Positions 1,919 through 24,683 of a stretch of DNA of 43,787 nucleotides are shown in pieces (positions within the stretch are counted from its first letter, which is position 1; each line of letters opens with the position of its first letter). Location of the stretch: positions 1-43,787 of the forward strand of contig JAIXUV010000337.1 of NCBI GenBank assembly GCA_027483345.1, given 5' to 3'. The DNA is from Verrucomicrobiales bacterium (GTDB lineage: Bacteria > Verrucomicrobiota > Verrucomicrobiia > Limisphaerales > UBA9464). The translations under genes were made by a program, and so were the position numbers. The notes under the pieces were generated by a model that saw only the letters and a program-made list of their open reading frames with translations, was not told where the DNA came from and ran no database searches.

Positions 1919-1922
<4 letters not shown>

Positions 1923-4620: not shown

Positions 4621-4829
4621 CGTAAAACTGTGCGGACGCAAAGCCCTCAAGTTATCCACACCCTCGCGGTCCAACCGCCTGCCTCGCCTAGCTTCGCTGG
4701 AATCCGGCCGATACACTTCATACGTCCGGATTCGGCGGAGACGCGCGATGATATCGTGCTTCCCTGTGCCGCCTTAAGGCTGCGCAGCCAGCTCCGCCTG
4801 TCGGGCAAATGTGGGGGATCATCGCGCCG

Positions 4830-7607: not shown

Positions 7608-9661
7608 CCAATCCTAACGATCCCGTTCCGTCGGTCTCTGTCACCTATTCGCGCAGCGGGGCATCGACCAAGGCCAACGAACTTGGCATGCGGCCTATGC
7701 AGGAACGCGCCTTCGAGAAGCGGGGCGAGCAGTATCTGCTGATCAAGTCGCCGCCGGCGTCAGGCAAGAGCCGGGCGCTGATGTTCATCGCCCTCGACAA
7801 GCTGGAGAACCAGAACCTCAGGCAGGCGATCATCGTCGTACCTGAAAAGTCGATCGGCGCGAGCTTCAATGACGAGCCCCTGACCAAATATGGATTCTGG
7901 GCTGACTGGACGGTCGCGCCGCGCTGGAATCTCTGCAATGCCCCCGGTGAAGATGGCGGCAAGGTCAATTCCGTAGGTGCGTTTCTGGAGTCGGACGACC
8001 AGGTTCTGGTCTGCACCCACGCGACCTTCCGCTTTGCGGTCGATCGGTACGGTGTTGAAGCCTTCGATGACCGGTTGATCGCCATCGACGAGTTCCACCA
8101 CGTCTCAGCCAATCCCGACAACAAGCTCGGCTTGCACCTCGGCGACTTCATGGCCAGGGACAAGGCCCATATCGTCGCGATGACGGGGTCGTATTTCAGG
8201 GGCGACGCCGAGGCGGTGCTTTCGCCCGGAGACGAAGCGAAATTCGAGACGGTCACCTACACCTACTATGAGCAGCTCAACGGCTACGAGCACCTCAAGC
8301 AGCTCGACATCGGCTACTACTTCTACTCAGGGGAGTATGTGGACGACATCTTGAAGGTCCTCGATCCTGCGGAAAAGACGATCGTTCACATCCCCAATGT
8401 GAACTCCCGCGAGAGCACTAAGGACAAAATCCGGGAGGTCGAGCACATCCTGGAAGCGCTCGGGGAGTGGCAGGGCACGGATGTCGCGACCGGGTTTCAG
8501 CTGGTCAAGACTGCCGAAGGGCGCGTGCTGCGGATCGCCGATCTGGTCGATGATGACCCGACCAAGCGTGACCGCGTCGCGGGGGCACTGAAGGACCCGG
8601 CGCAGAAGAATAATCGCGACTATGTCGACGTCATCATTGCGCTTGGCATGGCCAAGGAAGGCTTCGACTGGATCTGGTGCGAGCACGCTCTGACCGTCGG
8701 CTACCGCTCCAGTCTGACCGAAATCGTTCAGATCATTGGTCGTGCGACCCGCGATGCGCCGGGTAAGGCCAAGGCTCGCTTCACGAACCTCATCGCCGAG
8801 CCGGACGCGTCCGAGCAGGCCGTAACTGAAGCCGTCAACGATACCCTGAAGGCGATCGCCGCCAGCCTCTTGATGGAACAGGTTCTCGCGCCTCGCTTCG
8901 AGTTCAAGCCTAAGCGCGAGGGCACAGTGGCGACGCCGGGGTTCGACTATGGTGAGGGCGGTTACGATCCGGCCCGCTGCAACGTCGGTTTCAGTGAAGA
9001 GGCCGGCAAGTTCCAGATCGAGATCAAGGGCCTTGCCGAACCCAAGAGCCCCGAGGCGGCGCGGATATGCAGCCAGGACCTGAATGAGGTCATCGCGGCC
9101 TTTGTGCAGGAGAAGACCACGCTTGAGCGCGGTCTCTTCGATCCGGAGCTCGTGCCAGAGGAATTGACCCAGCTGCGCATGGGCAAGATCGTCAAGGAGC
9201 GCTACCCCGAGCTCGATGAAGCTGACCAAGAGGCCGTTCGCCAACACGCCGTCGCGGCCCTCAACTTCACCCAGAAGGCCAAGGACATTGCCCTTGTTGG
9301 TGATGACGGGACGCAGGCTTCGGTCAACACGGCGTTCGTCGACGGGGTGCGCAAGTTCGCCCTCCACGTCACCGAGCTCGACATCGACCTGATCGATCGG
9401 ATCAACCCGTTCGGCGAGGCCTATGCTATTCTCGCTAAGACGATGAGCGAGGACAGCCTCAAGCAGGTTCAGGCCGTCATCAACGCTCGGCGCGTGAACC
9501 TCAACATGGAAGAGGCGCGCGCCCTGGCCAAACGTGCGCTCGAGTTCAAGAACCAGCGCGGCCGCCTGCCATCCATCACCTCACCCGACGCCTGGGAGCA
9601 GCGCATGGCCGAAGGCGTTGCCTTCCTCCAGCGCATGAAAGCGAAGGCGACGGATGGCTGA
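7604..9661 (+). CDS. Superfamily 2 DEAD/DEAH-type helicase
   Basis: A 685-aa ATP-dependent nucleic-acid translocase or helicase. Walker A SPPASGKS is at 49-56, motif II is DEFH (162-165), and a C-terminal motif VI-like QIIGRATR is present, giving the two RecA-like domains of SF2. It starts with GTG overlapping the methylase stop (GTGA), so it is translationally coupled. It overlaps the nuclease gene downstream by 8 bp. In such cassettes the helicase is expected to move along DNA not protected by the methylase and to direct the nuclease. It could be related to the helicase of Hma-type systems; the assignment to that type is from gene content only. Confidence 0.9.
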   Translation: MTNPNDPVPSVSVTYSRSGASTKANELGMRPMQERAFEKRGEQYLLIKSPPASGKSRALMFIALDKLENQNLRQAIIVVPEKSIGASFNDEPLTKYGFWADWTVAPRWNLCNAPGEDGGKVNSVGAFLESDDQVLVCTHATFRFAVDRYGVEAFDDRLIAIDEFHHVSANPDNKLGLHLGDFMARDKAHIVAMTGSYFRGDAEAVLSPGDEAKFETVTYTYYEQLNGYEHLKQLDIGYYFYSGEYVDDILKVLDPAEKTIVHIPNVNSRESTKDKIREVEHILEALGEWQGTDVATGFQLVKTAEGRVLRIADLVDDDPTKRDRVAGALKDPAQKNNRDYVDVIIALGMAKEGFDWIWCEHALTVGYRSSLTEIVQIIGRATRDAPGKAKARFTNLIAEPDASEQAVTEAVNDTLKAIAASLLMEQVLAPRFEFKPKREGTVATPGFDYGEGGYDPARCNVGFSEEAGKFQIEIKGLAEPKSPEAARICSQDLNEVIAAFVQEKTTLERGLFDPELVPEELTQLRMGKIVKERYPELDEADQEAVRQHAVAALNFTQKAKDIALVGDDGTQASVNTAFVDGVRKFALHVTELDIDLIDRINPFGEAYAILAKTMSEDSLKQVQAVINARRVNLNMEEARALAKRALEFKNQRGRLPSITSPDAWEQRMAEGVAFLQRMKAKATDG

Positions 9662-10841
9662 TTTCACGGATGAAGATGACGCCCTTCTCGCCGAACTGGG
9701 TGTCGAGGTTGAGGTCAAGAAAGCTGGTTCGAGAACAGCCCGCGAGGAGCGGATAATCGCGGGCTTTGAGGACATTCAGCGATTTGTCGACGAGCATGGT
9801 CGACTGCCACAGCATGGCGAAGATTTGGACATCTTCGAACGGCTTTATGCCGTCCGGCTTGACCGGTTGCGGGGGCAGGAGGATTGCCGCGCACTGTTGG
9901 CCGAGTTCGATCGGCAGGGGCTTCTCTCCGGGGAATTCGCGCCGCCGGTTGGGATCGCCGATGATATTGATGATGATGAGTTGCTCGCTCAGTTGGGCGT
10001 CGCCGAAGAGCCGCAGTCGGCGCTTACCGAACTGCGCCACGTCCGGACAGCCGAGGAGCGCCGAGAGGCCGAGGACATCGCCAACCGCGAACGGTGCGCT
10101 GATTTCGAGAAGTTCAAGCCGCTCTTCGCTCAGGTCCAAAAGGATCTTCAGGAAGGTGTGCGACAGGCGCGTCCCTTTGAGCTGAAGGCGCAAATCCGGC
10201 CGGGCACGTGGTTTATCGTCAGCGGCCAGAAGGCTTATGTCGAGAGCGTCGGCGAAATATTCACGAACGCCCAGGGGCGCACTGACGCCCGCCTGCGGGT
10301 GATTTTCGACAACGGGACCGAGAGCAATATGCTCATGCGGTCGCTACAGCGGGCGTTGAACAAGGACGAGGCCGGGCGACGCATCAGCGACCCGATCGCG
10401 GGGCCATTGTTCGCCGACCAGGCAGAGCCCGACGATCAGGCCAGCGGTACGATCTATGTGCTGCAGAGCAAATCCGATCACCCGCTGGTCGCGGCCAATC
10501 GCGAACTTGTTCACAAGATCGGCGTGACGAATCTGAGCGTTCAGCAGCGGATCGCCGGTGCGAGGCTTCAGCCAACTTTCCTCATGGCCGACGTCGAAGT
10601 CGTCGCGACCTATGAGCTTTTCAACATCAACCGCGCTAAACTCGAACACCTCATCCACAAGGTGTTCGATCCCGCGCGCCTCGACATCGAGATCATGGAC
10701 AGGTTCGGCCGGCCGGTGATCCCGAAGGAGTGGTTCCTGGTCCCGGTATTCGTCATTGACGAGGCGGTAGGAAAGATCAGGGACGGGTCGATTACGGATT
10801 TTGTGTATGACCCGACGGCTGCTCGGCTTGTTGCCAGCTGA
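9654..10841 (+). CDS. GIY-YIG nuclease-domain protein (T5orf172/MUG113-like)
   Basis: A 395-aa protein. The C-terminal domain (about 265-375) has TIYVL (266-270), KIGVT (288-292), a later E331 in LEHLIH, and PKEWF near the end, the pattern of T5orf172/MUG113 GIY-YIG domains. In this branch the first motif is I-Y-V and the second K-I-G. The N-terminal about 110 residues are acidic with two short repeats of the form DD-x-LLA-x-LGV (about 9-18 and 105-114), possibly docking segments. A central beta region precedes the nuclease. It overlaps the helicase gene by 8 bp and is probably the cleaving subunit of the cassette. Confidence 0.85.
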   Translation: MADFTDEDDALLAELGVEVEVKKAGSRTAREERIIAGFEDIQRFVDEHGRLPQHGEDLDIFERLYAVRLDRLRGQEDCRALLAEFDRQGLLSGEFAPPVGIADDIDDDELLAQLGVAEEPQSALTELRHVRTAEERREAEDIANRERCADFEKFKPLFAQVQKDLQEGVRQARPFELKAQIRPGTWFIVSGQKAYVESVGEIFTNAQGRTDARLRVIFDNGTESNMLMRSLQRALNKDEAGRRISDPIAGPLFADQAEPDDQASGTIYVLQSKSDHPLVAANRELVHKIGVTNLSVQQRIAGARLQPTFLMADVEVVATYELFNINRAKLEHLIHKVFDPARLDIEIMDRFGRPVIPKEWFLVPVFVIDEAVGKIRDGSITDFVYDPTAARLVAS

Positions 10842-10973
10842 AGGTCGAGCCGCGCCGATTTTATCGAACTGAGAGTGCCGATTTTCGGCCCAAGCTTGAC
10901 CGTGAGGCGGCAGAACAACCCTTGAGGCAGCGGGGCTGTGAGCCTATCCTATAAGTAGGGTGGGCAGGTTTTG

Positions 10974-13220
10974 ATGCTTCAGCGTCTAAATGTAATTGAA
11001 GAGATAGGGCGTTTTTCCAAGCTCACGCACAAGGCGGAAGCGCTCACTAGACTGTCTCTGATTTTTGCGCGGAATGGCTACGGGAAGAGTACGCTCTGCG
11101 CCATCCTCCGATCAGCCTCCGACGGCAACGCCAGCCATATCAGCGCCCGTCGCAAGCTCGGGGCGACAGGCGACTCCCGTGTTCAATCTACATGGGCATC
11201 TGGCGCGACAGTGTCATTCAGCGCAGGCAAGTGGAATAGCTGTCCCGGCAAGATTCATGTCTTCGATCAGGAGTATGTCGCCAAAAATCTTCACGTTGGC
11301 GACAGCGTGACACGCGACAACAAGCGTAGCCTTCTACCCGTGGTCTTGGGCGATGAAGGGGTAAAGCTGGCGGATGAGGTCAACCGCCTTGATGCAGAGC
11401 AGCGGGCCGTCGACGAGAAGCGCAAGCAGGCGATCAGAACCATCACCGCTCGCTGCAAGGGTTTGCAGGAGAGCGATGTTGATAGCTTTTGCAAAGCAGA
11501 CGTGCCCGCCGACCTCGCCGAGAAAACGAAAGCTGCGGCCCAGCGCGTTTCGCTGATCAAGCAGGCAGATGTCGTCAAGCAGAAGAAGAATCCGCCCGCG
11601 CTTCCGCTAGGAGGTCTCGAAGGCGCGGCCGCGCTGTTGGCGAGAACCATTGACGGGCTTGGCCAGGATGCAGTGCAGCGCGTGCAGCAGCATCTTGCTG
11701 CCCACGATCTCGGCGAGAGGGCCCACGCTTGGCTGCAGTATGGGACGGCCCACGCGCCCGAGCATCACTGTCCCTTTTGCGCTCAGGATACCATCGGCCT
11801 GCCCTTGGTCTCTGCATACAAAGCCTTCTTCAGCGAAGGCTTGAAGGCGCTCAAAGGCGAGGTCGACATCTTGTCCGATGAGCTCGACAAACTGACGACT
11901 GAGAAGCTGGGTGCGCTCATCGACGCGAACGACACAGAGTTCATCTATTGGCAGAAGCTCTGCGAGCTTCCGGGCGCGCCGTCGCTGCCTGCTGACGAAC
12001 GCGGGCCCGTCGAAAGCGGCCTGGCGAAGCTAAGGACACTTGTCAGCGAGAAACGCGCCAATCCGCTGGAGCCAATCGCCCTCGGCCTTGATTCCGATGT
12101 CATCTGCCAAGCCGTCCAGCGCCTTCAAGTCTACAATGAGGGTGTTGCTGCCTGCGCGGCCGTGATCGACCAAGCCCGCGCCGAAACTGCTTCTGGCGAC
12201 TTAGCGCAAGCCGAGAAAAATCACACAAAGTGGGTCGCCATGGACGAGCGGTCGGCTGATCCAGTCAAGGCCGCTGTCGCCGACTATCTCGCTGCTGACA
12301 CCCGCCTCAGCGAGATCAAGACCGAGAAAGCTGCCGCTCAAACGACGCTAACCACCTACACCAAGACGACGATGGCAGCGCGCCAAGAGGCCGTTAACGA
12401 GCTGCTCGCCGACTTCGGCACGAGCTTTCGCGTTGTGGACGCCAAAACTAACTTCGTAGGCCGTGAGCCCAACACCGAGTTCGCCATTGAAATCGGTGCT
12501 CACAAGGTGAAGGCCGGCGACCGCTCCGACTCTGAGCCAAGCTTCAAGACCGTTCTGAGCGCCGGGGACAAGACAACGCTAGCGCTGGCCTTCTTCCTCG
12601 CCCAAGTGACTGCCGACCCCAAATTGCAGGATGCGATCATCGTGTTCGATGACCCGTTCAACAGTCAGGACTTGGACCGTCAGTTTCAGACGACAAGTCA
12701 TGTACGGGCGCTCAGCGGAAAAGCGTGTCAGACTATCGTCCTTTCACACGATCCGCGCTTCCTTCAGCTGATCGAAAAGAACGCGGATGGAGCGCTGACC
12801 CGCGCGTTTCAGCTACAATGCAGCGACGCTGGGGAAGGATCTCTTCGGGCTTGGTCGAGCGCCGACGAGCTGAAGTCGCTCTACATCCAGCAGAGCGAAA
12901 TGATCAGGGAATACGCGACGCATGGCACGCTATTGAACTGTGAGACGCTCAACTCCATTCACCAGGCCATAAGGCCGTTCCTTGAGGACTACCTCCGAGT
13001 TCGCTTCCCCGGTCGCTTCCCGGATCAGGCCCACATCTTCGAGATGGCCAATGCCATTCAGGCAGCGGGCTCATCAGACCCCATGGCGCAATACGTCGCC
13101 GATCTGCTTGCCCTGAACGAGTACACTCGACCAAACATGCATGGCGGCGGAACCACGCCCGTACCGTCCGAACTTCGTGCGCATTGCCGCAAGGTGGTGA
13201 AGATTGTCGGCAGTTACTGA
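10974..13220 (+). CDS. RloC/AAA_13-like SMC-type ATPase
   Basis: A 748-aa ABC/SMC-like ATPase from the ATG at 10974 (an adjacent TTG also opens the frame). Walker A is ARNGYGKST (32-40). Long coiled coils flank a zinc-hook CPFC (266-269). An ABC signature-like LSAGD is at 528-532, Walker B is IIVFDDP (555-561), and the H-loop SHD is around H592. This is the layout of AAA_13 proteins such as RloC and PrrC. Those kill cells by tRNA cleavage through a C-terminal nuclease; I cannot identify such a nuclease in residues 600-748. It follows the nuclease gene by about 130 bases and is probably the sensor or ATPase member of the cassette. Confidence 0.85.
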   Translation: MLQRLNVIEEIGRFSKLTHKAEALTRLSLIFARNGYGKSTLCAILRSASDGNASHISARRKLGATGDSRVQSTWASGATVSFSAGKWNSCPGKIHVFDQEYVAKNLHVGDSVTRDNKRSLLPVVLGDEGVKLADEVNRLDAEQRAVDEKRKQAIRTITARCKGLQESDVDSFCKADVPADLAEKTKAAAQRVSLIKQADVVKQKKNPPALPLGGLEGAAALLARTIDGLGQDAVQRVQQHLAAHDLGERAHAWLQYGTAHAPEHHCPFCAQDTIGLPLVSAYKAFFSEGLKALKGEVDILSDELDKLTTEKLGALIDANDTEFIYWQKLCELPGAPSLPADERGPVESGLAKLRTLVSEKRANPLEPIALGLDSDVICQAVQRLQVYNEGVAACAAVIDQARAETASGDLAQAEKNHTKWVAMDERSADPVKAAVADYLAADTRLSEIKTEKAAAQTTLTTYTKTTMAARQEAVNELLADFGTSFRVVDAKTNFVGREPNTEFAIEIGAHKVKAGDRSDSEPSFKTVLSAGDKTTLALAFFLAQVTADPKLQDAIIVFDDPFNSQDLDRQFQTTSHVRALSGKACQTIVLSHDPRFLQLIEKNADGALTRAFQLQCSDAGEGSLRAWSSADELKSLYIQQSEMIREYATHGTLLNCETLNSIHQAIRPFLEDYLRVRFPGRFPDQAHIFEMANAIQAAGSSDPMAQYVADLLALNEYTRPNMHGGGTTPVPSELRAHCRKVVKIVGSY

Positions 13221-13445
13221 AGCGCACTGAAGCATGTTCAAGGCCATGCCTTTTCCTTTCACGCTGCCCCTGAGATGAGCCCGCGACACTGGACGGGGCT
13301 GCCTGCCGGTCAACGGGCTGTCCGCTCCATTCGCCTCCACTGTGCTCCGTCTCCCGTGTTGCCCGTTTCGCTGCGCTGACCAGCCGGCGATCCGCCCCGT
13401 CCGTCTCCATCGCGTCCTCAGGGAACAGCGAAAGGAGAACAGGAC

Positions 13446-14372
13446 ATGACCACTTCATCCACTCAACGCTTCGACGTCTACGAAGCCATCACTCACCAGA
13501 TCATCACCGCCATCGAGGCCGGTGTCGGCCAGGTCCAGATGCCCTGGCACCGCTCTGGAGCCTCGATTCATCGCCCGGCGAACATCGCCAGCGGCAACGC
13601 TTATCGCGGCGTGAACGTGATCGCCCTCTGGGCCGCCGCCGCCAACGGTGGCTTCGATCAGGGCCTGTGGGGCACCTATCGCCAATGGCAGGAGCGCGGC
13701 GCTCAGGTCCGCAAGGGCGAGAAGTCCTCCCTCATCATCTTCTACAAGCAGTTCGATGCTGCCGACGATCAGGACCAGCAACGTGACCAACAGGACCATG
13801 ATGCTCAACGTCGCTTCATGGCCAAGGCGTCGCACGTCTTCAATGTCGCCCAGGTCGATGGCTTTGCGATCGATCAGCCCGATCAGGCGTTGGATCCCGT
13901 CATGCGAGATCAGAGCGCCGAAGGCTTTATCGCCCGCACGGGTGCGATCATCCGCGAGGGCGGCGAGCGCGCCTTCTATCGACCGAGCGATGACACGATT
14001 GCGATGCCGGATCGCTGGCGTTTCACCGGCACTTCGGAAACCTCACCGACCGAGGCCTGGTACAGCACACTGTTTCACGAGCTGACGCACTGGTCCGGCG
14101 CGGCCAGCCGACTGGATCGCCAGTTTGGCGAGCGCTTCGGCGATGACGCCTACGCGATGGAAGAGATGGTCGCTGAGATTGGTGCTGCATTCCTGTGCGG
14201 CGATCTGGGGATCACCGCGGAACCCCGTGCGGATCACGCCGCCTATATCGAGCATTGGCTGCGGATCATGAAGGGCGACCGCAAGGCGATCTTCGCGGCC
14301 GCGAGCGCGGCCAGCAAAGCTGCCGAGTACCTGGCTGGCGTCGCTGGCGTGGAGCGTCGGGACGCGGCTTAG
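13446..14372 (+). CDS. ArdC-like antirestriction protein with zincin domain
   Basis: A 308-aa protein with an N-terminal ArdC single-strand-DNA-binding-type domain (about 8-110; PWHR, NAYRGVN and WGTYRQW blocks) and a C-terminal metallopeptidase-like domain with HELTH (211-215). ArdC proteins of conjugative plasmids protect incoming DNA from restriction. AAAGGAG is well placed before the ATG. The 225-base leader (13221-13445) holds no supported gene but is long and pyrimidine-rich. It sits between defence and mobilization cargo, as expected for an entry function. Confidence 0.9.
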   Translation: MTTSSTQRFDVYEAITHQIITAIEAGVGQVQMPWHRSGASIHRPANIASGNAYRGVNVIALWAAAANGGFDQGLWGTYRQWQERGAQVRKGEKSSLIIFYKQFDAADDQDQQRDQQDHDAQRRFMAKASHVFNVAQVDGFAIDQPDQALDPVMRDQSAEGFIARTGAIIREGGERAFYRPSDDTIAMPDRWRFTGTSETSPTEAWYSTLFHELTHWSGAASRLDRQFGERFGDDAYAMEEMVAEIGAAFLCGDLGITAEPRADHAAYIEHWLRIMKGDRKAIFAAASAASKAAEYLAGVAGVERRDAA

Positions 14373-14446
14373 GCCGCAACTCTTTACGCCCCTCGACATG
14401 GCCGCGTTAAGTTGCGCTATGATGAACCTAAATCGGAGGCTGTGCG

Positions 14447-15094
14447 ATGAACTGGGCTGGTCGAGCTGCTGCAAACCTGTTGCCCCTCAGCGAAGAGGGT
14501 AGTGACCTTGCCAACGCTCTGAGAGAGTGGAGGTACACCGGTAACTTCCACGATCTCGAAGAGCCGGTGGAAACCTGCCAGCTCTGCGATCACCCGGACA
14601 TTCGATATCAGTTTGAAATCCGTAACCTGAAGACCGGGCACGAACTCCTTATCGGGTCGGAATGCATCAATCGGTTTGGCATCGCCGCAACTGATGAAGA
14701 AGGACGCGCGCTGGATGCAGCCGGCACGCGCAGGAAGGTCGAGCGGGATCGGCGAAAGCTGATCGAGGATGCGAGAAGCAGGCGCGTTATCACAGCGCTG
14801 GTCGCATTGGCCCACGCCGAAACGGACTTCGATATCCAGTCGTTCATTGTCTATTTGCGCACGCGCGGAGCCTTCACGCCCAGCCAGCTGGTCCTGGTCC
14901 TTTGGCGCTTGAGGACCCGAGGCATCGTTCATCGCCCCGGCGACTTCAAGCTCACGGTCAAGCGCAACCGAGAGAAGGCGCAGCTTCAGAATTTGAAAGA
15001 CTGGCAGCGAGAGCTGATCTCTCCAGCCCTTACCCCCGCTCAGCGTGAAATCATGGCGCGCAAGCCCAAATCGACGACTTGGGATTGGGAATAG
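14447..15094 (+). CDS. Zinc-binding accessory protein of mobile elements
   Basis: A 215-aa protein of unknown role. CQLC near residue 44 and the block YQFEIRNLKTGHELLIGSEC with Cys near 74 give four candidate zinc ligands around a beta structure. The middle is basic and helical and could contact DNA or RNA. GGAGG stands 9 nt before the ATG. Proteins of this kind recur near ardC genes on proteobacterial plasmids and islands, from my knowledge of such loci. It ends convergent with the small gene at 15115-15306. Confidence 0.75.
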   Translation: MNWAGRAAANLLPLSEEGSDLANALREWRYTGNFHDLEEPVETCQLCDHPDIRYQFEIRNLKTGHELLIGSECINRFGIAATDEEGRALDAAGTRRKVERDRRKLIEDARSRRVITALVALAHAETDFDIQSFIVYLRTRGAFTPSQLVLVLWRLRTRGIVHRPGDFKLTVKRNREKAQLQNLKDWQRELISPALTPAQREIMARKPKSTTWDWE

Positions 15095-15114
15095 CCGCGA
15101 TTCCGCCTTGGCCC

Positions 15115-15306
15115 TCAGGGGCGGGATTGGCGAACGCTACGCGTCGCCGATTGCGCTGCCGCCAGCAGTCTCGCGACGGCGGCATGTTCAGCTGGAGAAA
15201 GGTCCGGCGAGTGTTGGAGGATTTGCCGCAGGAAGAGCACGAGCTCTTCTAGTTCGCGGTCTGTGAGTGTCTCCAGGTCTTCGATCCTGATGAGTATGTG
15301 GCGCAT
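15115..15306 (-). CDS. Small hypothetical protein, 63 aa
   Basis: The start at 15306 is chosen over longer readings because CAGGAGA lies 7 nt upstream (MRHILIRIEDLETLTDREL...). The protein is a Leu/Glu-rich helix (about 8-45) with a basic tail and no recognised domain. It is transcribed against its neighbours, from the 430-base gene-free stretch to its right. Its good ribosome site and regular amphipathic pattern support it as a real gene. Function unknown. Confidence 0.6.
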   Translation of the reverse strand: MRHILIRIEDLETLTDRELEELVLFLRQILQHSPDLSPAEHAAVARLLAAAQSATRSVRQSRP

Positions 15307-15737
15307 GGCGGTCTCCTGTGCGTTTGGCCGAGCCGAACCATTCGGGCTCTTGTCTCGCTGATCGGTCGTCGCAGAAGGACCAGGGCGGCACCGGTAGGGT
15401 GAAAAGGCAGTGGAGCAGGGCGCTTTGCGCCCTTGCCGCCAGCTATGGGGCTCCTGTGGCATCCGGTCTTCTCAAGAGCTCTGAGTGGTCGCTTGGCGTT
15501 CGCTGGAGACGCCGTGGGCAATGGGTGGTCGGGGATCGAGAGGGGGCCAGAGGACTCCGTTTGGATGTCCGGGGTGGCTCGTTTTCACGCCTTGGTCCTG
15601 ACCGGACGCGGCCTGTCGTCAATGCCCGGCCCGCGCCAGTGCGCTGCGCGCACCCGTGTTGGGCATGACGCCCGGCCTTCTCCGTCCGGTCTTTTGGAAA
15701 GGCGTAACGAGCCAACCCAAACCAAAGGAGAATTCAC
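15307..15737. other. Gene-free leader region, 430 bases
   Basis: No reading frame here has a plausible start and ribosome site. The region contains small hairpins (for example GGCGC/GCGCC around 15419-15431 and GTGCGC/GCGCAC around 15640) and ends in AAAGGAG before the next gene. It probably holds the leader and promoter of the gene at 15738 and the divergent promoter of the gene at 15115-15306. I see no promoter good enough to name. Confidence 0.5.
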
Positions 15738-15965
15738 ATGGCACGCACTCAAACCGCCCCCGCCACCGCGCCCAAGGCCCCGGACCTCATCGCCTGGCAC
15801 GTCACCCAGAAGGGTGAGAAATCCTACTGGAACAAATGCGGAGCCTGCTGGCAGCACAAGGACAAGAAAGGCCTGACGCTCCAGCTGGAAGTCCTGCCGA
15901 TCAACGGCCGCATCGTCCTGCGTCAGCCCAGCGAGGAAGCCAGCGCCGAAGGGGGTCAGAAATGA
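15738..15965 (+). CDS. Small conserved mobile-element protein, 75 aa
   Basis: MARTQTAPATAP begins an Ala/Pro-rich tail, followed by a compact domain with KSYWNKCGACWQHKDKKG and NGRIVLRQ. I recall similar short proteins (K-S-Y-W, W-x-H-K-D-x-K-G, NGRIVLR) on proteobacterial conjugative elements, without a known role. AAAGGAG precedes the ATG by 8 nt. Its stop overlaps the next start (ATGA at 15962-15965), so the two genes form an operon. Confidence 0.75.
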   Translation: MARTQTAPATAPKAPDLIAWHVTQKGEKSYWNKCGACWQHKDKKGLTLQLEVLPINGRIVLRQPSEEASAEGGQK

Positions 15966-16285
15966 CCCCCGATCGCGACATCGCAACCGAGACCTTCATC
16001 TGGCGCGGGATCACGATCCAGGTGGACTACGAAGCCGACTGGCTGGGAGCCGCCGCGCGCGGCTCCACTCACGCCACCGCCCATCTTCAATTGCGGTCGA
16101 TCTCTCCGGAAAGGGCGCAGCTTCCGGTCACCGAAACCGGCTATCGCTCCCACTTCCTCCCGATGGGCGAAGTGGAAGCGTCCGGCGGCCCTACTGCCTA
16201 CGCCGTCGCCTGGCTCGACTACATGGCGCAGTCGTCCGAATGGCGTCGCCATGAACAGGAGAGCCGGCAGCTCAGTCTGTTCTAG
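15962..16285 (+). CDS. Hypothetical accessory protein, 107 aa
   Basis: The start at 15962 is set by the ATGA overlap with the upstream 75-aa gene. The protein has the beta-strand pattern FIWRGITIQVDYE, a Gly-Ala stretch, then HLQLRSISPERAQLPVTETGYRSHFL and an acidic helical end. I do not recognise a named domain. Comparable genes follow the 75-aa family member in other elements, which supports a shared accessory role. No catalytic motif is seen. Confidence 0.7.
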   Translation: MTPDRDIATETFIWRGITIQVDYEADWLGAAARGSTHATAHLQLRSISPERAQLPVTETGYRSHFLPMGEVEASGGPTAYAVAWLDYMAQSSEWRRHEQESRQLSLF

Positions 16286-16388
16286 GGAGCCGGGTCATGC
16301 GGGGGGTTTTGTGCAGTGGTTCGATCGATCGCTAGGGAAGTGACTACGGTCCAGGCCGTCATCTCCACGATGGCGGTTTGAGCAGCTT

Positions 16389-17054
16389 TCAACGCTCCAT
16401 TAGGACGTGGATAAAGTAGTAGCCTTCGCTTCCGCTGAAACAGAAGGATTTGAGACCTTTTAGCGCGGCGTTGGTGTTCCCAAGTGTGGCGTACCCGGCA
16501 GGGAATGCGCTTAGTGTTCCTGTGTAGTATGCGCTGACGCCGCCAACCCATCCCCAGCTGTCCGTGGGAGCGTCTATATCTCCAAGGCCGAGTTCCGAGT
16601 TGATGGCATTGCACACATCGCTGGAGATTCCCCGATAAGCGATGACAAGTTCTGGGGCATCTGTGCCAACATTGAGAATTCTAACCGACCAAAAATAGGG
16701 CGGAAATTCTGTGGCTAGCGCCCAATCCGGAAACTCGAAAACTGGAATAACGTCGAATATCTCACAATTGGCTGTTGTGCATGCTGAGTTATTGCTGGCC
16801 CAGCCTCCAGTGTAACTGAAATCAAAGCCATGCTCTGGAACGCCGTCTACAAGCTTCGCCCGCATTATCGTGTTTTCGAGAAGGGACATATTTTGCATCA
16901 GCGATGCCACGAGTGCGCCTTGCCGCTCTTTCGATGCATCATTCCCGTTTGAACTCATCGAGTTTGTAACGGCGTATGAAAGGGCGGAAAATAGAATAAT
17001 CGAAATCAATATTATGAATAGTATTGAACCTCGATCGCTCCTGTCAGTAATCAT
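16389..17054 (-). CDS. Orphan pilin/pseudopilin-like membrane protein
   Basis: A 221-aa protein with a short charged N-terminus (MITDRSDRG), one hydrophobic helix (about 9-30; SILFIILISIILFSALSYAV) and a long exported domain with Cys pairs (C92, C97 and a later Cys near the end). This resembles minor pilins or pseudopilins processed after Gly. No pilin assembly or peptidase genes are nearby. The gene and its upstream region (17055-17186) are clearly richer in A/T than the rest of the element, so it was probably acquired separately. The start lacks a good ribosome site. Role unknown; surface exposure is inferred. Confidence 0.65.
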   Translation of the reverse strand: MITDRSDRGSILFIILISIILFSALSYAVTNSMSSNGNDASKERQGALVASLMQNMSLLENTIMRAKLVDGVPEHGFDFSYTGGWASNNSACTTANCEIFDVIPVFEFPDWALATEFPPYFWSVRILNVGTDAPELVIAYRGISSDVCNAINSELGLGDIDAPTDSWGWVGGVSAYYTGTLSAFPAGYATLGNTNAALKGLKSFCFSGSEGYYFIHVLMER

Positions 17055-17186
17055 CCTTAGATGTTAGCCTAATTATCCAATCTCTTCACAGTGGGTAATT
17101 TAGACTTGATTGTATGGCCGTGTGCCTGCCGTTTGATGCTCGCGAATTTGCGCGCCGGCTCGCGACGTTCCAAGCCGAGGAAATGC

Positions 17187-18104
17187 TCAATCGCCCAGGA
17201 TGGTCGCCAGCAGCTCACGCTGCTCAGCATGCTTGCCGGGGTTGACCTCTTTCAGCTTCAGAAGGTTCTGAACCTTCCATCTGACTCCGGGCAGGTCAGC
17301 GCCCTGTGGTCGATTGATCTGTCCGAAATCCGGCTCGCCGTCGTGAAGCGAAAGAAGGAAGGCGCGGGCCCCATCGTCCATGCGGCTGGCGACGTCCGCG
17401 AACAGTCGTTCTCGCGCCGCAACAAGATCGGCCAGTTCGACCGGCACAAGCGCCATGCCCTCGAACTCCTTTGCGTATCGATCTTCCAGGGGCTGCGCGC
17501 TCGGACGGATGAGCTCGTGCATCGGCCGATTTGATTGCGCGAGGTAGACCAGGAAGGTGCGGAACAGATCATCCGTCAGGCCTTCGTTCTCGTAGAGCAG
17601 TTTCACGTCGAAAAGGTCGCGCGGGTGCTGACGGTCAAGCGCTGCGACGAGCTTGCCGGCATAGAGGTCCTCGAACGCCACCACGTTCATTTCGGCAAAG
17701 CCGAACCGCTCCTGGACGGCGTCCGTCACCACCCGCAATTCGGTCGGATGAATCGTGCCGCGCGTAACGGGCGAGGTCTCGATCTTCACCTGATTGCGTC
17801 CTTCCTGGACGCCGATCCGCGTATCTTCATCGCCGCCGCCCGTGTTGCGTTTCACGGTCGCGCCGGGTAGCGCCTTTTCGATCGTTCCCATGACGCGATC
17901 GAGCGCCGCGTCGATCTCTACGAGCGTTTCCTTGCGCGGCAGCAGCGGCAGAAATGTGAGGTCGATGTCGACCGAAAGTCGCGGCAGGTCGCGGTAGAAC
18001 AGATTGATCGCCGTGCCGCCCTTCAGAGCGAAGGCCGGCTCCTTGGCCACGCTCGGGAGGGTGCGGATGAGAAGGTCGACGACGGAGGCGTAGTCAGTCG
18101 GCAT
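17187..18104 (-). CDS. abiEii: AbiEii-type nucleotidyltransferase toxin
   Basis: A 305-aa DUF1814-family nucleotidyltransferase. It has the G-G-T motif (29-31), then DID (46-48) as the metal-binding acidic pair, and a later K...D segment in LYAGKLVAALDRQHPRDLFDV. AbiEii is the toxin of type IV toxin-antitoxin phage-abortive systems and transfers nucleotides to RNA targets. The gene overlaps the antitoxin gene by 11 bp and is transcribed after it, the usual order. The family's normal length is about 300 aa, so it looks intact. Confidence 0.92.
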   Translation of the reverse strand: MPTDYASVVDLLIRTLPSVAKEPAFALKGGTAINLFYRDLPRLSVDIDLTFLPLLPRKETLVEIDAALDRVMGTIEKALPGATVKRNTGGGDEDTRIGVQEGRNQVKIETSPVTRGTIHPTELRVVTDAVQERFGFAEMNVVAFEDLYAGKLVAALDRQHPRDLFDVKLLYENEGLTDDLFRTFLVYLAQSNRPMHELIRPSAQPLEDRYAKEFEGMALVPVELADLVAARERLFADVASRMDDGARAFLLSLHDGEPDFGQINRPQGADLPGVRWKVQNLLKLKEVNPGKHAEQRELLATILGD

Positions 18105-18942
18105 TGACGCCTCTCTCCATTAGCTCGGCCGGGACCGTGATGCGGTAGGTCTTGTGCATGCGTCCGCCTTTCACAAGTTCGCGGTCGCCTTGCCCTAGGT
18201 CGATATGCGATCGATCCAGATGCTTCAGCCAAGCGTGCCCATGCCGGTCAGCGAAGACAAAGAACAGGCGTTTTACCTTCACGCTTTTGCAAAGGCTCAG
18301 GAGTTTGGAGAGGCGCTTGGGGCGCAGGTTCGTCAGCCCCTGAAACGCCATATCGACGACATGGAAGCTCGCTGTCTTCGGAAGCTCATCCAGCGCTTCG
18401 AGGATTGCGCGTTCCGGCGTTGAGGTGCGCAGCGGCCAAAGGCCATCGTCCCCTCCGCTGAGTGATGCGGTTGGCGTGGTCGCGTCCCCTTCGGGCTCAA
18501 GACCGAATGGATTGCCGCTGAAGAGTTTGGTCGATCGCTTCTCTATCCGGACACCGAGGTCCAGTTTGGAGAGCCAGGTCGGGAACGGGTCGCCGTACAG
18601 GAATACTGGCTGACCAACACCCAGGGTCATGTAGTGAACATGCCCGGCGAGTTGCAGCGCGCTCTCGCCCCCGACATGGATCGGGTAGTCCATGATCCAT
18701 TGCGCGGAGAGAACCGCCGTCTTCCAATCGACCATTGCGGTTGAACCGGTCCGCGTCGGTCCGGGGCGGCGGTACAGGCCATGACCGGCGCGCTCAAGCC
18801 AGCCTCGACCGAGGTAGTCGTGGACCGACTGGCGCGCGACACTTCTGGCGCTCATCCAGTGCGAATCGATCAGGAAGCCGTTCGGTACGGCATCCAGCAC
18901 CAACTTTAGCTTTTGATCGTTTTGTCCGCTCATAACGGACAT
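18094..18942 (-). CDS. abiEi: AbiEi-type antitoxin and autorepressor
   Basis: A 282-aa protein with an N-terminal winged helix-turn-helix (about 10-60; SARSVARQSVHDYLGRGWLER) and the longer C-terminal antitoxin domain of the AbiEi family. It would neutralise AbiEii and repress its own operon by binding paired inverted repeats. Two such repeats are present at 18921-18941 and 18993-19015. Start codons at 18942 and 18933 are both in frame; either lies under the first repeat. Overlap with the toxin gene implies coupled translation. Confidence 0.9.
   Translation of the reverse strand: MSVMSGQNDQKLKLVLDAVPNGFLIDSHWMSARSVARQSVHDYLGRGWLERAGHGLYRRPGPTRTGSTAMVDWKTAVLSAQWIMDYPIHVGGESALQLAGHVHYMTLGVGQPVFLYGDPFPTWLSKLDLGVRIEKRSTKLFSGNPFGLEPEGDATTPTASLSGGDDGLWPLRTSTPERAILEALDELPKTASFHVVDMAFQGLTNLRPKRLSKLLSLCKSVKVKRLFFVFADRHGHAWLKHLDRSHIDLGQGDRELVKGGRMHKTYRITVPAELMERGVNAD
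18921..18941. promoter_or_regulatory. Putative AbiEi operator 1
   Basis: Inverted repeat TGTCCG-N7-CGGACA (18923-18941), with TTTGTCCG as the extended left arm from 18921. It overlaps the abiEi start codons, so binding would block the operon. It is a near copy of operator 2, whose centre lies 72 bp away, close to seven helical turns. Paired inverted repeats are the known operator layout of AbiEi autorepression; binding here is inferred. Confidence 0.7.
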
Positions 18943-18992
18943 TCTAGCACTTTTTCAAAGTGTCTCAAAGCATGACTTTGAAGGTTGTCAAA

Positions 18993-19015
18993 TTTGTCCG
19001 TTTAGGGCGGACAAA
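18993..19015. promoter_or_regulatory. Putative AbiEi operator 2, between abiE and TIR gene
   Basis: Perfect 8-bp arms TTTGTCCG-N7-CGGACAAA. The region between the two operators also holds CACTTT/AAAGTG (18948-18962) and CAAAG/CTTTG (18966-18980). Operator 2 lies about 100 bp before the chosen start of the divergent TIR gene, so AbiEi could also influence that gene. Confidence 0.7.
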
Positions 19016-20904: not shown

Positions 20905-22653
20905 CTAGCCTTTCGTGAGGTCACGCCCCAGCGTCTTGAGCGCGGGATTTTCGAACCAGCGCACCTTCGTGCCCATGATCGGATCATGGTGTTCGATCAG
21001 GATCAGCTGCCGGTGAGCCGGGAGCCGCATCAGCTCGTCAGGGAAGGCCAGCTTCCGCTGCATCGCCGAGTTGGTTTCCGTGGTCGTGGTGGAGTTCGAG
21101 GAGCTGCCGCCGTTCGGCCCCGACGAATAGCCGAACGCCCTGGCGATGGCGGTGCTGATGTTCCAGACCGTCGTGACCCCGCACAGGGCGGAGAAATACT
21201 CCGCCGTCATGCGGTCCCGCGACCCGAAATACTGGATCATGCCGCTGTTCGAGATCAGCGTTTCGTAGCCGCCCTCGCCGTAGATTTTCTTCAGCTGGCC
21301 GAGGTCCTGGGCGATGCCCCAGAGCTGCATCCCGAACCCGGCCATCAGGCCGAACGCCTGCTCGACCATCGTCAGCTTGCCGAGCGAGGGCATCTCATCC
21401 AGCAGGAAGAGCACGGGCTTGGCCGGCTTCACCTCGATATTGCGCGCATTCACGGTGATCGCCTGCTGGATCATCAGGCGCAGCCACCGGCTGAAGGTGT
21501 TCAGCCGGTCGGCGGGCAGCACCAGATAGACCGACATCGGCTTCGTCTTCAGATCTTCGAAGCGGAAGTCCGACGACGACAGGCTCTCGCGCAGCCTGGC
21601 GCTATCGAGGAAGTGAGTTTGCGCCTGCGCCGAGGCGATGACGTTGGCGAGCAGCTTTTCTTCCTTCTGCGCACACCGCGCGCCGGTGCTGGCGACGATG
21701 TGGTGATCGGAATCCAGCATGCGCTGGAACAGCAGCCTCATGTCGTCGCCGTCCAGCAGCAGCAGGTCGCGCACCCGCGAAAGCGTGCGGGTCTCTTCCT
21801 CGTGTTTGTCGGTGGCGACGTAGAGGATCAGGCCCTGGAGCAGGGCCTTGGATTCCTCCACCCAGAACTTGTCGCCCTCGCCATCGGCGACGATCAGGGC
21901 GTCGGCCAGCAGCATGGCGTTCTCGGTGATGTCGATGTCGCCATTCACCAGCCAGTCCAGCGGATTGAACCGCGCCGACTTTCCGTCCGACGCGATGTTC
22001 CACGGATCGACGATGTAGACGTCCTGGCCCATGCGCTCGCGCTGGGCCGCCGTGATCATCGCGTTCTCGCCCTTCGGATCGATGACGAGCACCGAGCCGC
22101 TGTAGGTGAGCAGGTTCGGGATGATCGCCGTCGTGCCCTTGCCCGAGCGGGTCGGCGCGATCGTCAGCAGGTGCCGGTCGCTCGCATAGTGGATCGGCGC
22201 GCTGCGCTCGGACGTTTCGAACTGCCCGAGCCGGACGCCGCTTTCGCCGACCAGGCCGTGCTGCTCCAGATAGGGGAGGGTCGCCCATTCGGCGGAGCCG
22301 AACGTGGTCGGGCGATCGAGGAACGCCTTGGCGGCCGTCCCCAGCCAGAGACCGAGCGCCGCCCAGAAGGCGACGAACGAAACGATCGAGGTGAAGCCCA
22401 TCCCCGCCACGCCCATATCGCCGAGCGAGAGGAAGGTGATGATCGCCAGCGCACCGGCGAGGATGATGATGCGGAACTTGGCGGCCTTCGGCGAGAAGAA
22501 CCAGCCGATGGCGTAACCCGCGCCGGCTGCGATGAGGATCGTGGCGATCTGCGTGACCGCAGCCAGCCCCATATATTTGTCGATAACGGTCTTGATGAGG
22601 ACCGTGGCCACCACCGCAAGGGCGGCGGCAATTTTCCAGTCAATCCTGGGCAT
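20905..22653 (-). CDS. Type IV coupling protein, VirD4/TraG family
   Basis: A 582-aa membrane ATPase that would deliver the relaxase-DNA complex to a helper secretion channel. Three hydrophobic helices lie at about 8-22, 32-52 and 60-105. Walker A is APTRSGKGTT (166-175) and Walker B is PVLFLLDE, ending D419-E420. RFNPLDW and the QDLGQLKKIYG segment are typical of the family. The C-terminus after about 500 has a Ser/Thr/Asn-rich linker. It follows the relaxase gene by 17 bases. Coupling protein without channel genes is the usual outfit of a mobilizable element. Confidence 0.93.
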   Translation of the reverse strand: MPRIDWKIAAALAVVATVLIKTVIDKYMGLAAVTQIATILIAAGAGYAIGWFFSPKAAKFRIIILAGALAIITFLSLGDMGVAGMGFTSIVSFVAFWAALGLWLGTAAKAFLDRPTTFGSAEWATLPYLEQHGLVGESGVRLGQFETSERSAPIHYASDRHLLTIAPTRSGKGTTAIIPNLLTYSGSVLVIDPKGENAMITAAQRERMGQDVYIVDPWNIASDGKSARFNPLDWLVNGDIDITENAMLLADALIVADGEGDKFWVEESKALLQGLILYVATDKHEEETRTLSRVRDLLLLDGDDMRLLFQRMLDSDHHIVASTGARCAQKEEKLLANVIASAQAQTHFLDSARLRESLSSSDFRFEDLKTKPMSVYLVLPADRLNTFSRWLRLMIQQAITVNARNIEVKPAKPVLFLLDEMPSLGKLTMVEQAFGLMAGFGMQLWGIAQDLGQLKKIYGEGGYETLISNSGMIQYFGSRDRMTAEYFSALCGVTTVWNISTAIARAFGYSSGPNGGSSSNSTTTTETNSAMQRKLAFPDELMRLPAHRQLILIEHHDPIMGTKVRWFENPALKTLGRDLTKG

Positions 22654-22670: not shown

Positions 22671-23966
22671 TCAGAGCTCATGGGTGACGCCGCGCCGACG
22701 TGGGCGGCGATGCGGGCCGTCGCCGTCGATGCGGCGGTCGGGGGCATTCGGGTCTCGGGAGGCGTGCAGGAACCGGATCGCGTCGCGGTTCAGCGCCTTG
22801 CGCTCCTGCACATGGCGCAGGCGCATCTTGTCGATGCGCTCCTGTAGGGCGCGCCGCTCCCTCATCTGGTCGAAGACCAGCTGATCGCGCTGCGCCTGAT
22901 CGCGGCGCAGCCCTTCGAAGGCTTCGATCTGATTTCTGGATTTGATCTCCGCGGCCTTGCCGCTGAGCATGTCGACGAAGCCGCCCAGGCCCTTGCGCAG
23001 TCTCTGCGCGCGGGCGTCCGTCTCCTGCCGCCAGCGTTCGGCCTGCATGAACTTCAGGCGTTCCCGCTCTGCGCGATGGTCGCTGCGCTGCTCATCGCGC
23101 CTCGCCACCAGCGGGCGCAGGTCTTGTGCCTGCGCCGCCTTCGCTTCAGCGACGAAGCCTTTCAGTTTCGCCGTGACCTGTTCAGCGACGGCGCTGCGAA
23201 CGTCGGTCAGCTCGCGAAGAGTCTCACCGTCGCCGAACTTGCGCCGGACCTCGCCGGTCTTCACGCCGAGATACTTCGGCACCGAGAAGACGTTGCCTTC
23301 GACATCGAGCGCGACGAACCCGCGCCGATCGCCTTTGGCGAGGAAGTAGCCGCGCTCTTCCAGCGCCGCCGCGAACGCCTTGGCGCTATCGGACTGCGTC
23401 CACGCTTCGCGGAACACGTCCTTGATCTCGCGCGGATCGAGACCCAGCCGCCTGGCCTGTTGCCATTCGGCGAGGGTGAAGTTCAGGGGGCTTTTGCCGC
23501 CGTGCTCGCGCAGCCCGTCCGGCAGCGACCAGCCGTTTTCAAGGTAGAGCTCCCGCGAGAGCGCGGTCAGCTTGTTCTTGAAATGCGAGAGGTTGACCGC
23601 CCGCATCGCGTCCGGATCGATGCGCGACCAGACGACGTGAGCATGTCGCCTGCCTTCCTTCTCGTGAATGATGATGGCGCGCGGCTGGCCTTCCAGGCCG
23701 AGGCGCTTCTCCGCCTCATCCGCCGCACGCCGAAAATCCTCTTCGCCGGTCTCCGCGCCTTTCGGCGGGTTGAGGCTCAGCGAGAATATGAACTGTTTGC
23801 ACTGCGTGCCGCGCGAGACCGCGTAGGCTTCGGCCAGCGCCCCGTGCAGGTCGTTGGCCACGAAGCCACGCACCTCGACCACGCTCACATGATCGTTGTC
23901 GCGATCGTTCAGCAGATGGCCCGCCAACTGCTTCGCGCCCGACCTCTGTGAGCCCTTGAGGATCAC
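22671..23966 (-). CDS. Relaxase (mobilization nuclease)
   Basis: A 431-aa relaxase-domain protein. The metal-binding motif is H101, H108, H110 in HEKEGRRHAHVVWSRID, characteristic of the Pfam Relaxase family. The C-terminal third (about 260-400) is a highly charged coiled coil with many Arg/Gln repeats. No tyrosine occurs before Y48, although the nucleophile of classical relaxases lies in an N-terminal motif. The equivalent segment here is GHLLNDRDNDHV (16-27), so a histidine nucleophile is possible, as known for some other relaxases. The start overlaps mobC by 4 bp, so translation is coupled. Confidence 0.9.
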   Translation of the reverse strand: MILKGSQRSGAKQLAGHLLNDRDNDHVSVVEVRGFVANDLHGALAEAYAVSRGTQCKQFIFSLSLNPPKGAETGEEDFRRAADEAEKRLGLEGQPRAIIIHEKEGRRHAHVVWSRIDPDAMRAVNLSHFKNKLTALSRELYLENGWSLPDGLREHGGKSPLNFTLAEWQQARRLGLDPREIKDVFREAWTQSDSAKAFAAALEERGYFLAKGDRRGFVALDVEGNVFSVPKYLGVKTGEVRRKFGDGETLRELTDVRSAVAEQVTAKLKGFVAEAKAAQAQDLRPLVARRDEQRSDHRAERERLKFMQAERWRQETDARAQRLRKGLGGFVDMLSGKAAEIKSRNQIEAFEGLRRDQAQRDQLVFDQMRERRALQERIDKMRLRHVQERKALNRDAIRFLHASRDPNAPDRRIDGDGPHRRPRRRGVTHEL

Positions 23967-24409
23967 AGCTTGAATCCCTTGGGCGCGGTGGCGCGGGCGA
24001 AGCTCTGCGAGGTGGATTGCTTCGGCTTCGGTTCGCTGCCGTTCTCGACGCCCAGCGCTTTCATGAGCAGCTGGCGCATCACACGGATGTCGGCGCAGGC
24101 CTGTGTGAGCGCGGCGCAGGTCGGATCGTCGAAGTAGAGGTTCCCCAGGTTGGCGGCGTGCGCCAGCTGATTGAGGTTGTTGGCGATGCGGCTCGCGCCG
24201 AGACAGGCCAGCACCTCGGCAAGAGCCTGCTGGTCCTTCACGGGCGACTTCGAGCGCGCGCGGTAGCGCGGCGCATCCTCCGCGAAGAGAAGGCTCTTTA
24301 TGTATGCCGACACCCCGAGGGTGCCTGCGTTGCGCTCAAGCCGGGCGCGTTCCTCGAACGTCAGCCGGATCGAAAACGGTGGCGTCCGTTTTCCTTGTGT
24401 CTTCGACAT
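23963..24409 (-). CDS. mobC: MobC-like relaxosome protein
   Basis: A 148-aa protein with an N-terminal ribbon-helix-helix-like segment (SIRLTFEERARLERNAGTLG, ending SAYIKSLLF) and the conserved MobC block LGASRIANNLNQLAHAANLG near residues 70-90. It should bind oriT and help the relaxase open the strands. It is the first gene of the mob operon, with the candidate oriT just upstream (24432-24513). It overlaps the relaxase gene by 4 bp. Length is normal for the family. Confidence 0.9.
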   Translation of the reverse strand: MSKTQGKRTPPFSIRLTFEERARLERNAGTLGVSAYIKSLLFAEDAPRYRARSKSPVKDQQALAEVLACLGASRIANNLNQLAHAANLGNLYFDDPTCAALTQACADIRVMRQLLMKALGVENGSEPKPKQSTSQSFARATAPKGFKL

Positions 24410-24431
24410 CAGCAGCTCTCCAGCCGCCGAC

Positions 24432-24513
24432 CTGACGAATGCCCACGGGCAGTCGGTTCAAATCCCGATCAGGGATTTGAACTTGGTGCCCCGTCCTTGC
24501 GGACGTTCGTCAG
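24432..24513. other. Candidate origin of transfer (nested palindromes)
   Basis: Outer arms CTGACGAA (24432-24439) and TTCGTCAG (24506-24513) enclose a perfect 11-bp inverted repeat, GTTCAAATCCC (24456-24466) and GGGATTTGAAC (24472-24482), with a 5-nt loop. TTGGTGCCCC and a small hairpin CGTCC/GGACG (24492-24505) follow. An inverted repeat followed by GTGC-CCC is the layout of IncQ-type oriT sites, and the location next to mobC is right. The nick site itself is not identified. Confidence 0.55.
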
Positions 24514-24611
24514 ATCATAGGCGTTGAAGAGCAGGCTCAGGGGGTTGGTGGGATCGCACGGAACCGAGTATTCGCCTGGGATGCGGCCGCGTAGGCTGCG
24601 GCGGTCAATAG
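24469..24611 (-). other. Alternative 3' end of the integrase gene, joined in the excised circle
   Basis: On the minus strand a frame runs from the second att core to a TGA at 24469-24471 and encodes 46 residues (IDRRSLRGRIPGEYSV...NVRKDGAPSSNP). It is in the same frame as the integrase through the shared core GTTGCGGG. On excision it would replace the tRNA-encoded tail GFEPATFRL. Third codon positions are mostly G/C as in neighbouring genes, which supports coding use. Its stop lies inside the inner palindrome of the candidate oriT. Confidence 0.65.
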
Positions 24612-24623
24612 CCCCCGCAACCA
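24612..24623. other. Second att core, probable attR of the present element
   Basis: CCCCCGCAACCA differs from the tRNA core by one base. The following 11 bases also resemble the element side of attL (20 of 23 over the extended match). It separates the present element from a 48-bp relic. Confidence 0.7.
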
Positions 24624-24671
24624 TCGATACCTGCATTCCAGAATCCGTATTTAGGGAGAGGCGGTCACGCC
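24624..24671 (-). pseudogene. Relic of a second, related integrase gene end
   Basis: Between the two right-hand att cores the minus strand reads RDRLSLNTDSGMQVSM and then VAGA across the core. The resident integrase reads SGGQVTVVAGA at the same place. The relic therefore looks like the last about 16 codons before the att site of another serine integrase of the same family, left by a nearly complete deletion of an older element in tandem with the present one. It is too short for certainty. Confidence 0.55.
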
Positions 24672-24683
24672 CTCCCGCAACCA
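24672..24683. other. Third att core, original tRNA 3' end duplicate
   Basis: CTCCCGCAACCA is identical to the tRNA core at 233-244. It is followed 8 bases later by the rRNA-operon terminator, so it marks the original chromosomal continuation of the tRNA gene. Confidence 0.75.

Follow-up and report, generated by a model that had tools for sequence, protein, structure and literature searches.

The 43,787-nucleotide window analyzed here (contig JAIXUV010000337.1, taken whole) carries an element of about 24 kb, between cores at 235 and 24614, that encodes a large serine integrase, a relaxase, MobC, and a coupling protein (Pfam scan). By sequence, the 3' end of the integrase gene contains the attachment site, which is read in the frame V-A-G. 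In the integrated state, the gene ends on the antisense strand of the host tRNA-fMet gene (GFEPATFRL, with the stop opposite the anticodon). Upon excision, the element ends would join and the integrase would gain a longer end that otherwise goes unread at the far end of the element. The predicted tail exchange is well supported by the sequence and by relatives of the element. Because the circle-only tails of many relatives end like a ClpXP/ssrA degron, the switch would act on the amount of integrase. We give a probability of about 0.65 to the reading that integration swaps the integrase tail and that, in much of the family, a protease-labile free form has its degron replaced on integration.

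The two alternative ends of the gene and the cores are arranged as follows.

168-244, plus strand: tRNA-fMet (anticodon CAT), the attachment gene (ARAGORN)
201-1922, minus strand: large serine integrase, integrated form, 573 amino acids (aa), ending VVAGAGFEPATFRL (translation; Pfam Resolvase, Recombinase, and Zn_ribbon_recom)
235-244, minus strand: core copy 1, TGGTTGCGGG, at the integrase/tRNA junction
24469-24623, minus strand: circle-only 3' end of the integrase gene, consisting of core 2, 46 codons, and a stop
24505-24549, minus strand: conserved block TNPLSLLFNAYDLTN of the circle-only tail (TSPLNLLFNAFDLTN in relative L176 and DLLFNAYDITD in relative L242)
24614-24623, minus strand: core copy 2, the inner core at the other end of the element
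24624-24673, minus strand: spacer between cores 2 and 3, in frame and stop-free, which together with core 3 reads VAGGRDRLSLNTDSGMQVSM
24674-24683, minus strand: core copy 3, in frame and 60 bp outward of core 2, adjoining the inverted repeat AAAACCCG...CGGGTTTT

Domains PF00239, PF07508, and PF13408 all scored above cut-offs in the window integrase. Translation of 201-1922 confirmed the end VVAGA-GFEPATFRL that a first-pass annotation had given for the integrated form. ARAGORN places tRNA-Met (CAT) at 168-244 of the plus strand. Therefore, the last residues of the integrated integrase are antisense tRNA, as had also been claimed, and the antisense strand of tRNA-fMet provides both the final codons and the stop. 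At the far end, the minus-strand open reading frame (ORF) that ends at 24469 reads ...MVAGA-IDRRSLRGRIPGEYSVPCDPTNPLSLLFNAYDLTNVRKDGAPSSNP. It runs 46 residues past VAGA to the end APSSNP, so the same core does continue in the same frame, as annotated. Joining the element ends in silico leaves the integrase frame open, with 610 aa via core 2 or 630 aa via core 3, compared with 573 aa in the integrated form; a longer tail in the circle had been predicted, and a broken junction frame, named beforehand as a refuting result, was not found. The stop of the integrated form (TTA TGA) is antisense to the anticodon loop of the initiator tRNA, and it therefore sits at a sequence that cannot easily change.

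The 10-bp core TGGTTGCGGG has three copies, all on the minus strand. The first-pass annotation had the second copy right but overlooked the third, which is also in frame. The spacer between cores 2 and 3 shows a 75% direct repeat with 60-bp spacing. Core 3 is probably the true host junction, because in several other far ends the outermost core is flanked, toward the host, by repeats resembling terminators (seen by eye in L188, L190, L196, and L241; L-numbers denote collected loci or fetched sites of relatives, and W the window). A terminator scan with strict settings gave no match here. Several related elements also have the core at both ends. Core matches alone are weak, as a reversed control pattern also matches most genomes. 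An open frame as sufficient evidence was rejected too: over 57 tails, the median open length was 22 codons for the integrase frame, compared with 24 and 14 codons for the other two frames, which are thus open about as long. A run this long could arise by chance, and the evidence is conservation and not openness.

The wider family consists of phages and islands, mostly of Alphaproteobacteria. We sampled 143 integrases: that of the window, those of 80 genome loci kept of 588 and of 53 viral-contig loci, 6 from 20 plasmid records listed among 287 matches, and 3 from 40 phage records listed among 830 matches. A viral scan with the window protein as the single query gave no match; alignment queries succeeded. 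Ninety of the 143 end in the fMet-type xFEPxTFxL (FRL in 87 and FGL in 3), 9 have another tRNA-type end, and 3 have other such readings. In 36 others, the reading does not enter a tRNA, and the remaining 5 are truncated. Near-identical integrases can have either tail, as in L067 and L079, which are 97.9% identical over 571 aa and end VAGAGFEPAAFRL and VAGARYSRYQHSLVVAI, respectively. In elements that seem to stand in tandem (L079/L183 of Gluconacetobacter diazotrophicus and L136/L254), the inner integrase ends on the circle-type tail of the next element, and only the integrase beside the tRNA has a tRNA-type end.

Some GFEPxTFRL loci lack a tRNA gene. They were considered as counterexamples and set aside; in three of them (L050, L056, and L065), the complete tRNA sequence appears 18 to 49 kb farther along (by eye in L245 to L247). 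In the 18 such loci printed (L039, L040, L044, L045, L050, L055, L056, L059, L063, L065, L070, L090, L095, L098, L103, L112, L117, and L121), the match stops at the anticodon loop or no more than about 10 bases beyond it. This pattern is expected if another element sits in the anticodon loop, and these loci were counted as integrated. The stacked element is probably of the tyrosine-integrase type.

To these integrated ends we compared 64 circle-type tails: those of 33 integrases that do not read into a tRNA and 31 far-end readings, including that of the window. The far ends were located by core searches in chosen genomes, among the matches listed, and at least 5 of the 31 lie directly behind another integrase-like frame. 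These searches covered 31 genomes, 12 of which were searched again, and later 8 genomes, of which 3 were repeats and 5 new. Five additions bring the tails to 69. The three integrases left out of the 36 are L161 (an oversight, later added), L174 (the same as L163), and L218 (no core). Left out of the 40 sites L176 to L215 were L178, L179, L195, L197, L200, L201, and L212 to L215, which are matches within genes or the ends of tRNAs. Both L190 and L194, which have a tail in common, count among the 64, whereas L254 was excluded, being cut by the contig end.

Many of these tails have degron-like ends. Twenty-seven of the 64 end in AA, compared with 4.6% of 1637 ORFs of the same loci, and 57 of the 64 end in two small or hydrophobic residues, compared with 31.5% of those ORFs. 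In the other two frames of the 57 core-bearing tails, there was no AA end (0/114), and the small or hydrophobic pair was found in 32/114. With the five additions, the counts are 27/69 for AA, 41/69 for a last residue A, and 60/69 for the pair. Family-level counts are safer because the tails are related to each other. Grouping by a simple single-linkage rule gave 22 tail families, and AA is found in 5 (p 0.003), a last A in 12, and the pair in 18. The tmRNA tags of hosts provide a comparison: all 17 that were read end LAA, VAA, MAA, or IAA (ssrA). Among phage genome records, the RR1-A integrase ends GRFVA and that of Mae-JY30 ends GVIAA; Mae-JY29 is without the core. In L140, the core is read in another frame, and the tail still ends VIAA.

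The codons behind these ends vary. Eleven distinct ends of the form L-(F/L)-(R/Q)-(T/A)-A-A draw on 5 codons for Leu, 5 for Arg, and 3 and 4 for Ala, as well as on each of the three stops, and they sit in tails of 16 to 45 residues. In seven IPxLAA tails, differences at codon positions 1, 2, and 3 number 28, 21, and 107 over codons 13 to 22, compared with 15, 22, and 10 over codons 4 to 12, which are the attP arm. Because third-position differences dominate only beyond the attP arm, selection is on the protein end and not on the attP DNA.

Two smaller sets were also read. A further 40 core sites are mostly tRNA copies or genes; 10 have a recognizable arm, by a rule set after looking, and AA ends 4 of these 10. 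Among 26 new viral loci, 4 integrases do not read into a tRNA, and 1/4 ends in AA and 2/4 in A, which are too few to weigh. At L191, the core near position 594 of the minus strand has one G fewer. The integrase frame there ends REIA; shifted by one base, the DNA would read LLFHAMA (by eye). This is either a decayed end or a frame-shifted variant.

The frame across the attachment region is also kept where the core is repeated. Two or three cores, 45 to 132 bp apart, are present in many elements (the window at 24614-24683, and L037, L057, L060, L062, L066, L069, L087, L189, L190, L194, L199, L211, and L212). There are 39 distinct intercore intervals, and 35 of them, of eight lengths, are multiples of three, all stop-free. 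We conclude that the frame is maintained because 35/39 intervals preserve it without a stop. The 60-bp interval of the window is one of the 35, many of which are related 51-bp units. Each of the four off-frame intervals includes TTTT, and they resemble host or remnant DNA beyond the tail. The serial cores look as if short attP modules had been inserted without breaking the integrase frame.

The element of the window belongs to a mobilizable subgroup with its own tail motif, L-L-F-N-A-(Y/F)-D-(L/I)-T, immediately before mobC. L176, the far end of the L043 element, reads VAGATNPLDLPLYEVSKGKLVAGATSPLNLLFNAFDLTNSYISAKP, where the window reads VAGAIDRRSLRGRIPGEYSVPCDPTNPLSLLFNAYDLTNVRKDGAPSSNP. An ungapped alignment from core 2 of W and the outer core of L176 scores 47, with 14/42 identical residues, and none of 100000 shuffles reached this score. 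Over the 15-codon block, the two differ 0, 3, and 8 times at codon positions 1, 2, and 3, that is, in 7 synonymous and 3 nonsynonymous codons. L242, from the L044 element, keeps LLFNAYDITD behind a different linker; the tails of L196, L198, and L241 read LL(L/I)(F/I)A(T/P)D(I/F)S(G/A)WRY(V/A)S; and that of L054 reads LYLLFQARDIRAL. Related elements thus keep part of the circle-only tail, and the loss of conservation that would have counted against the first-pass annotation was not found. A mobC gene or homologue follows the tail in W, L054, L176, L196, L198, L241, and L242. In L054, a single assembled contig has the integrase, the tail, and then mobC 45 bp on, with the junction frame intact. 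This is the arrangement expected in a circle or in a tandem pair.

The motif appears to go with the attP of this integrase and not with mobC in general, because only 1 of 23 relaxase/mobC loci had it upstream of mobC (0.66 expected), and that match, L353, is the known element of L196. The only other locus of the 23 with an fMet-type core and tail before mobC is L356. It has a related motif there, QLFQKHDI, which the search pattern missed. The L176 tail, when searched in 289 genomes, found itself and four matches at E values of 0.34 to 0.5.

We propose the following for how the exchange might work. In much of the family, the circle-only end would be an ssrA-like degron that exposes the free-form integrase to early breakdown by ClpXP or a similar protease. 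The integrase of a free element would be short-lived, so that integration would be confined to a brief period after entry, and after excision the free form would be cleared, which would hinder reintegration. Integrated copies would have an untagged, longer-lived integrase, ready to excise when a directionality factor becomes available. Because serine integrases normally depend on such a factor for excision, a long-lived integrated form would not have to do harm. On balance, we think that the family couples DNA state to recombinase lifetime: a conserved last exon would be parked unread, rejoined to the gene in the circle, and there tag the enzyme for proteolysis, with antisense tRNA as the untagged exon. 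In mobilizable elements, the same junction would also put the integrase gene immediately ahead of mobC and the relaxase operon. For the window subgroup, with its L-L-F-x-A-x-D motif just before mobC, a destabilizing or other regulatory role is our best guess. Because the window tail is partly conserved but not AA-ended, its role is only inferred, and we suggest tentatively that it might destabilize the protein as well.

Several observations weigh against the proposal. None of the 8 subgroup tails ends in AA, and only that of L242 ends in A; the window ends APSSNP. Only about 15 of the 46 residues of the window tail are conserved, and a comparison of 42 codons between W and L176 shows 18, 23, and 24 differences at codon positions 1, 2, and 3. 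In the block, pairwise comparison of all seven subgroup tails gives 130, 86, and 158 differences at these positions, and L198 and L241 differ there in 5 synonymous and 4 nonsynonymous codons. Therefore, W and L176 are the only pair with a clear excess of synonymous changes. Two small or hydrophobic last residues are absent from 9/69 tails (W, L053, L074, L083, L147, L175, L176, L244, and L356). Seven of the 33 read-through tails are without a recognized in-frame core (L140, L148, L166, L167, L168, L172, and L175); dropping them leaves AA ends in 26/57. Many tails begin with residues encoded by the attP arm, where likeness says nothing about the protein, and the tails are related to one another. 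Some read-through forms are in tandem arrays, of which L136 appears to be one, and a test for circular contigs by end overlap was positive in 0/10.

Three other explanations were considered. The tail might act on activity or directionality, by touching the coiled coil or a directionality factor, and not on stability. The first-pass annotation had taken this line, with a circle-only tail biasing integration against excision. Serine integrases are directional, parts of their C-terminal domain control directionality, and the conserved motif of the window subgroup is not AA-ended, all of which would fit. However, the larger families conserve the extreme C terminus at a variable distance from the core, and this end resembles host ssrA tags, which fits proteolysis better than docking. 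We regard an effect on activity as unlikely. Of the earlier claim about integration state, the exchange of the C terminus is well supported; a bias of integration against excision is a proposed role.

The exchange might also be real but a by-product of packing attP against the integrase gene, with any stop sufficing and the tail having no function. The tails are open no longer than the other frames, and outside its 15-residue block the window tail is mostly unconserved. Such a by-product would not be expected to end in AA in 27/64 tails and 0/114 readings of the other frames, or to keep L-F-R-(T/A)-A-A-like ends with synonymous codons across differing tail lengths. Nor would it account for 35/39 in-frame intercore spacers or for the block kept in W, L176, and L242. 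We consider it improbable, slightly more so than an effect on activity. Finally, conservation of the DNA at 24429-24549 for attP, an origin of transfer (oriT), or mobC expression, with the open frame incidental, is very improbable: a strong hairpin overlaps the last codons and mobC comes next, but block differences from L176 are mostly in third positions, and the motif was upstream of mobC at only one of the 23 loci, in an already known element.

If the reading of a degron replaced on integration is true, this would be a simple natural circuit in which DNA arrangement sets protein stability. Directionality is usually ascribed to a separate factor. Here, the reaction product would rewrite the enzyme, so that a single gene would act as a self-recording switch. 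This reading would explain the GFEPxTFRL ends of many integrases in the family, and it carries a warning that such integrases, when cloned from integrated elements, would lack the free-form end.

Large serine integrases of the phiC31, Bxb1, and TP901-1 type share with the window protein the Resolvase, Recombinase, and zinc-ribbon domains and a short core. In these classical systems, attP lies outside the integrase gene, whereas here it is inside. SSV1-type archaeal integrases likewise have attP inside the integrase gene. Integration splits that gene, whereas here both gene forms are complete. The closest precedent is the integration-dependent immunity of mycobacteriophages, reportedly described by Broussard et al. 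in 2013.

In those mycobacteriophages, according to passages of PMC9262239, attP lies in the repressor gene, the free form is ssrA-like tagged, and the tag is lost on integration, with the integrase separately tagged. Parts of two other sources describe further repressor-type cases (PMC9934374 and PMC6109161), and tyrosine integrases are reported in part of another (PMC8566455). As far as these passages go, the likenesses are attP inside a gene, a tRNA as the attB gene, and an untagged prophage form. A C-terminal ssrA-like (LAA-like) free-form end, encoded at the far end and lost on integration, is seen in much of the wider family, and the window tail ends APSSNP. Unlike the switched repressor described there, the serine integrase itself carries attP and exchanges its tail. 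Antisense tRNA encodes the alternative end, and carriers include mobilizable elements as well as phages. Serine-integrase mobilizable elements have an integrase, a relaxase, and mobilization genes in common with the window element and disrupt dispensable host genes; the passages concerned are without tRNA use or a change of the integrase (PMC5704250). Within the open-access literature (titles, the starts of abstracts, and passages, with subscription literature mostly outside), we found no integrase gene that carries attP and changes its end.

The host of the contig was considered as well. The window flank was sought in relatives of its assembly; there was no empty site, and short matches were found in three other genomes (E values of 2.6e-4 to 9e-4). 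The flank protein had no match in 18 other genomes of the genus of the assembly. A homologue was present in 2/385 alphaproteobacterial genomes, at about 50%, with no tRNA nearby. Furthermore, 5S matches in the genus of the assembly are only about 76% identical. From these sequence comparisons, the contig looks misbinned.

The rest of the element includes the following features next to the circle-only tail.

20905-22653, minus strand: VirD4-type coupling protein (Pfam)
22671-23966, minus strand: relaxase, MobA/VirD2-like (Pfam)
23963-24409, minus strand: MobC, directly downstream of the circle-only tail (Pfam)
24429-24516, no strand assigned: nested hairpins that overlap the final codons of the tail and precede mobC (DNA fold z -5.87)

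The element is best called an integrative and mobilizable element. Among 20 of its ORFs scanned with Pfam, which are part of the total, there was no mating-pair family. Defense cargo occupies 4809-19000 and includes MmeI-like restriction-modification, a helicase-type protein, a T5orf172 protein, an AAA_13 protein, ArdC antirestriction, and an AbiE toxin-antitoxin pair. The predicted gene order in the circle, on one strand, is integrase, attP, tail, hairpin, mobC, relaxase, and coupling protein. The hairpins at 24429-24516 are an oriT candidate. Within them, upstream of mobC, is a tRNA T-arm-like palindrome, TCAAATCCC..GGGATTTGA.
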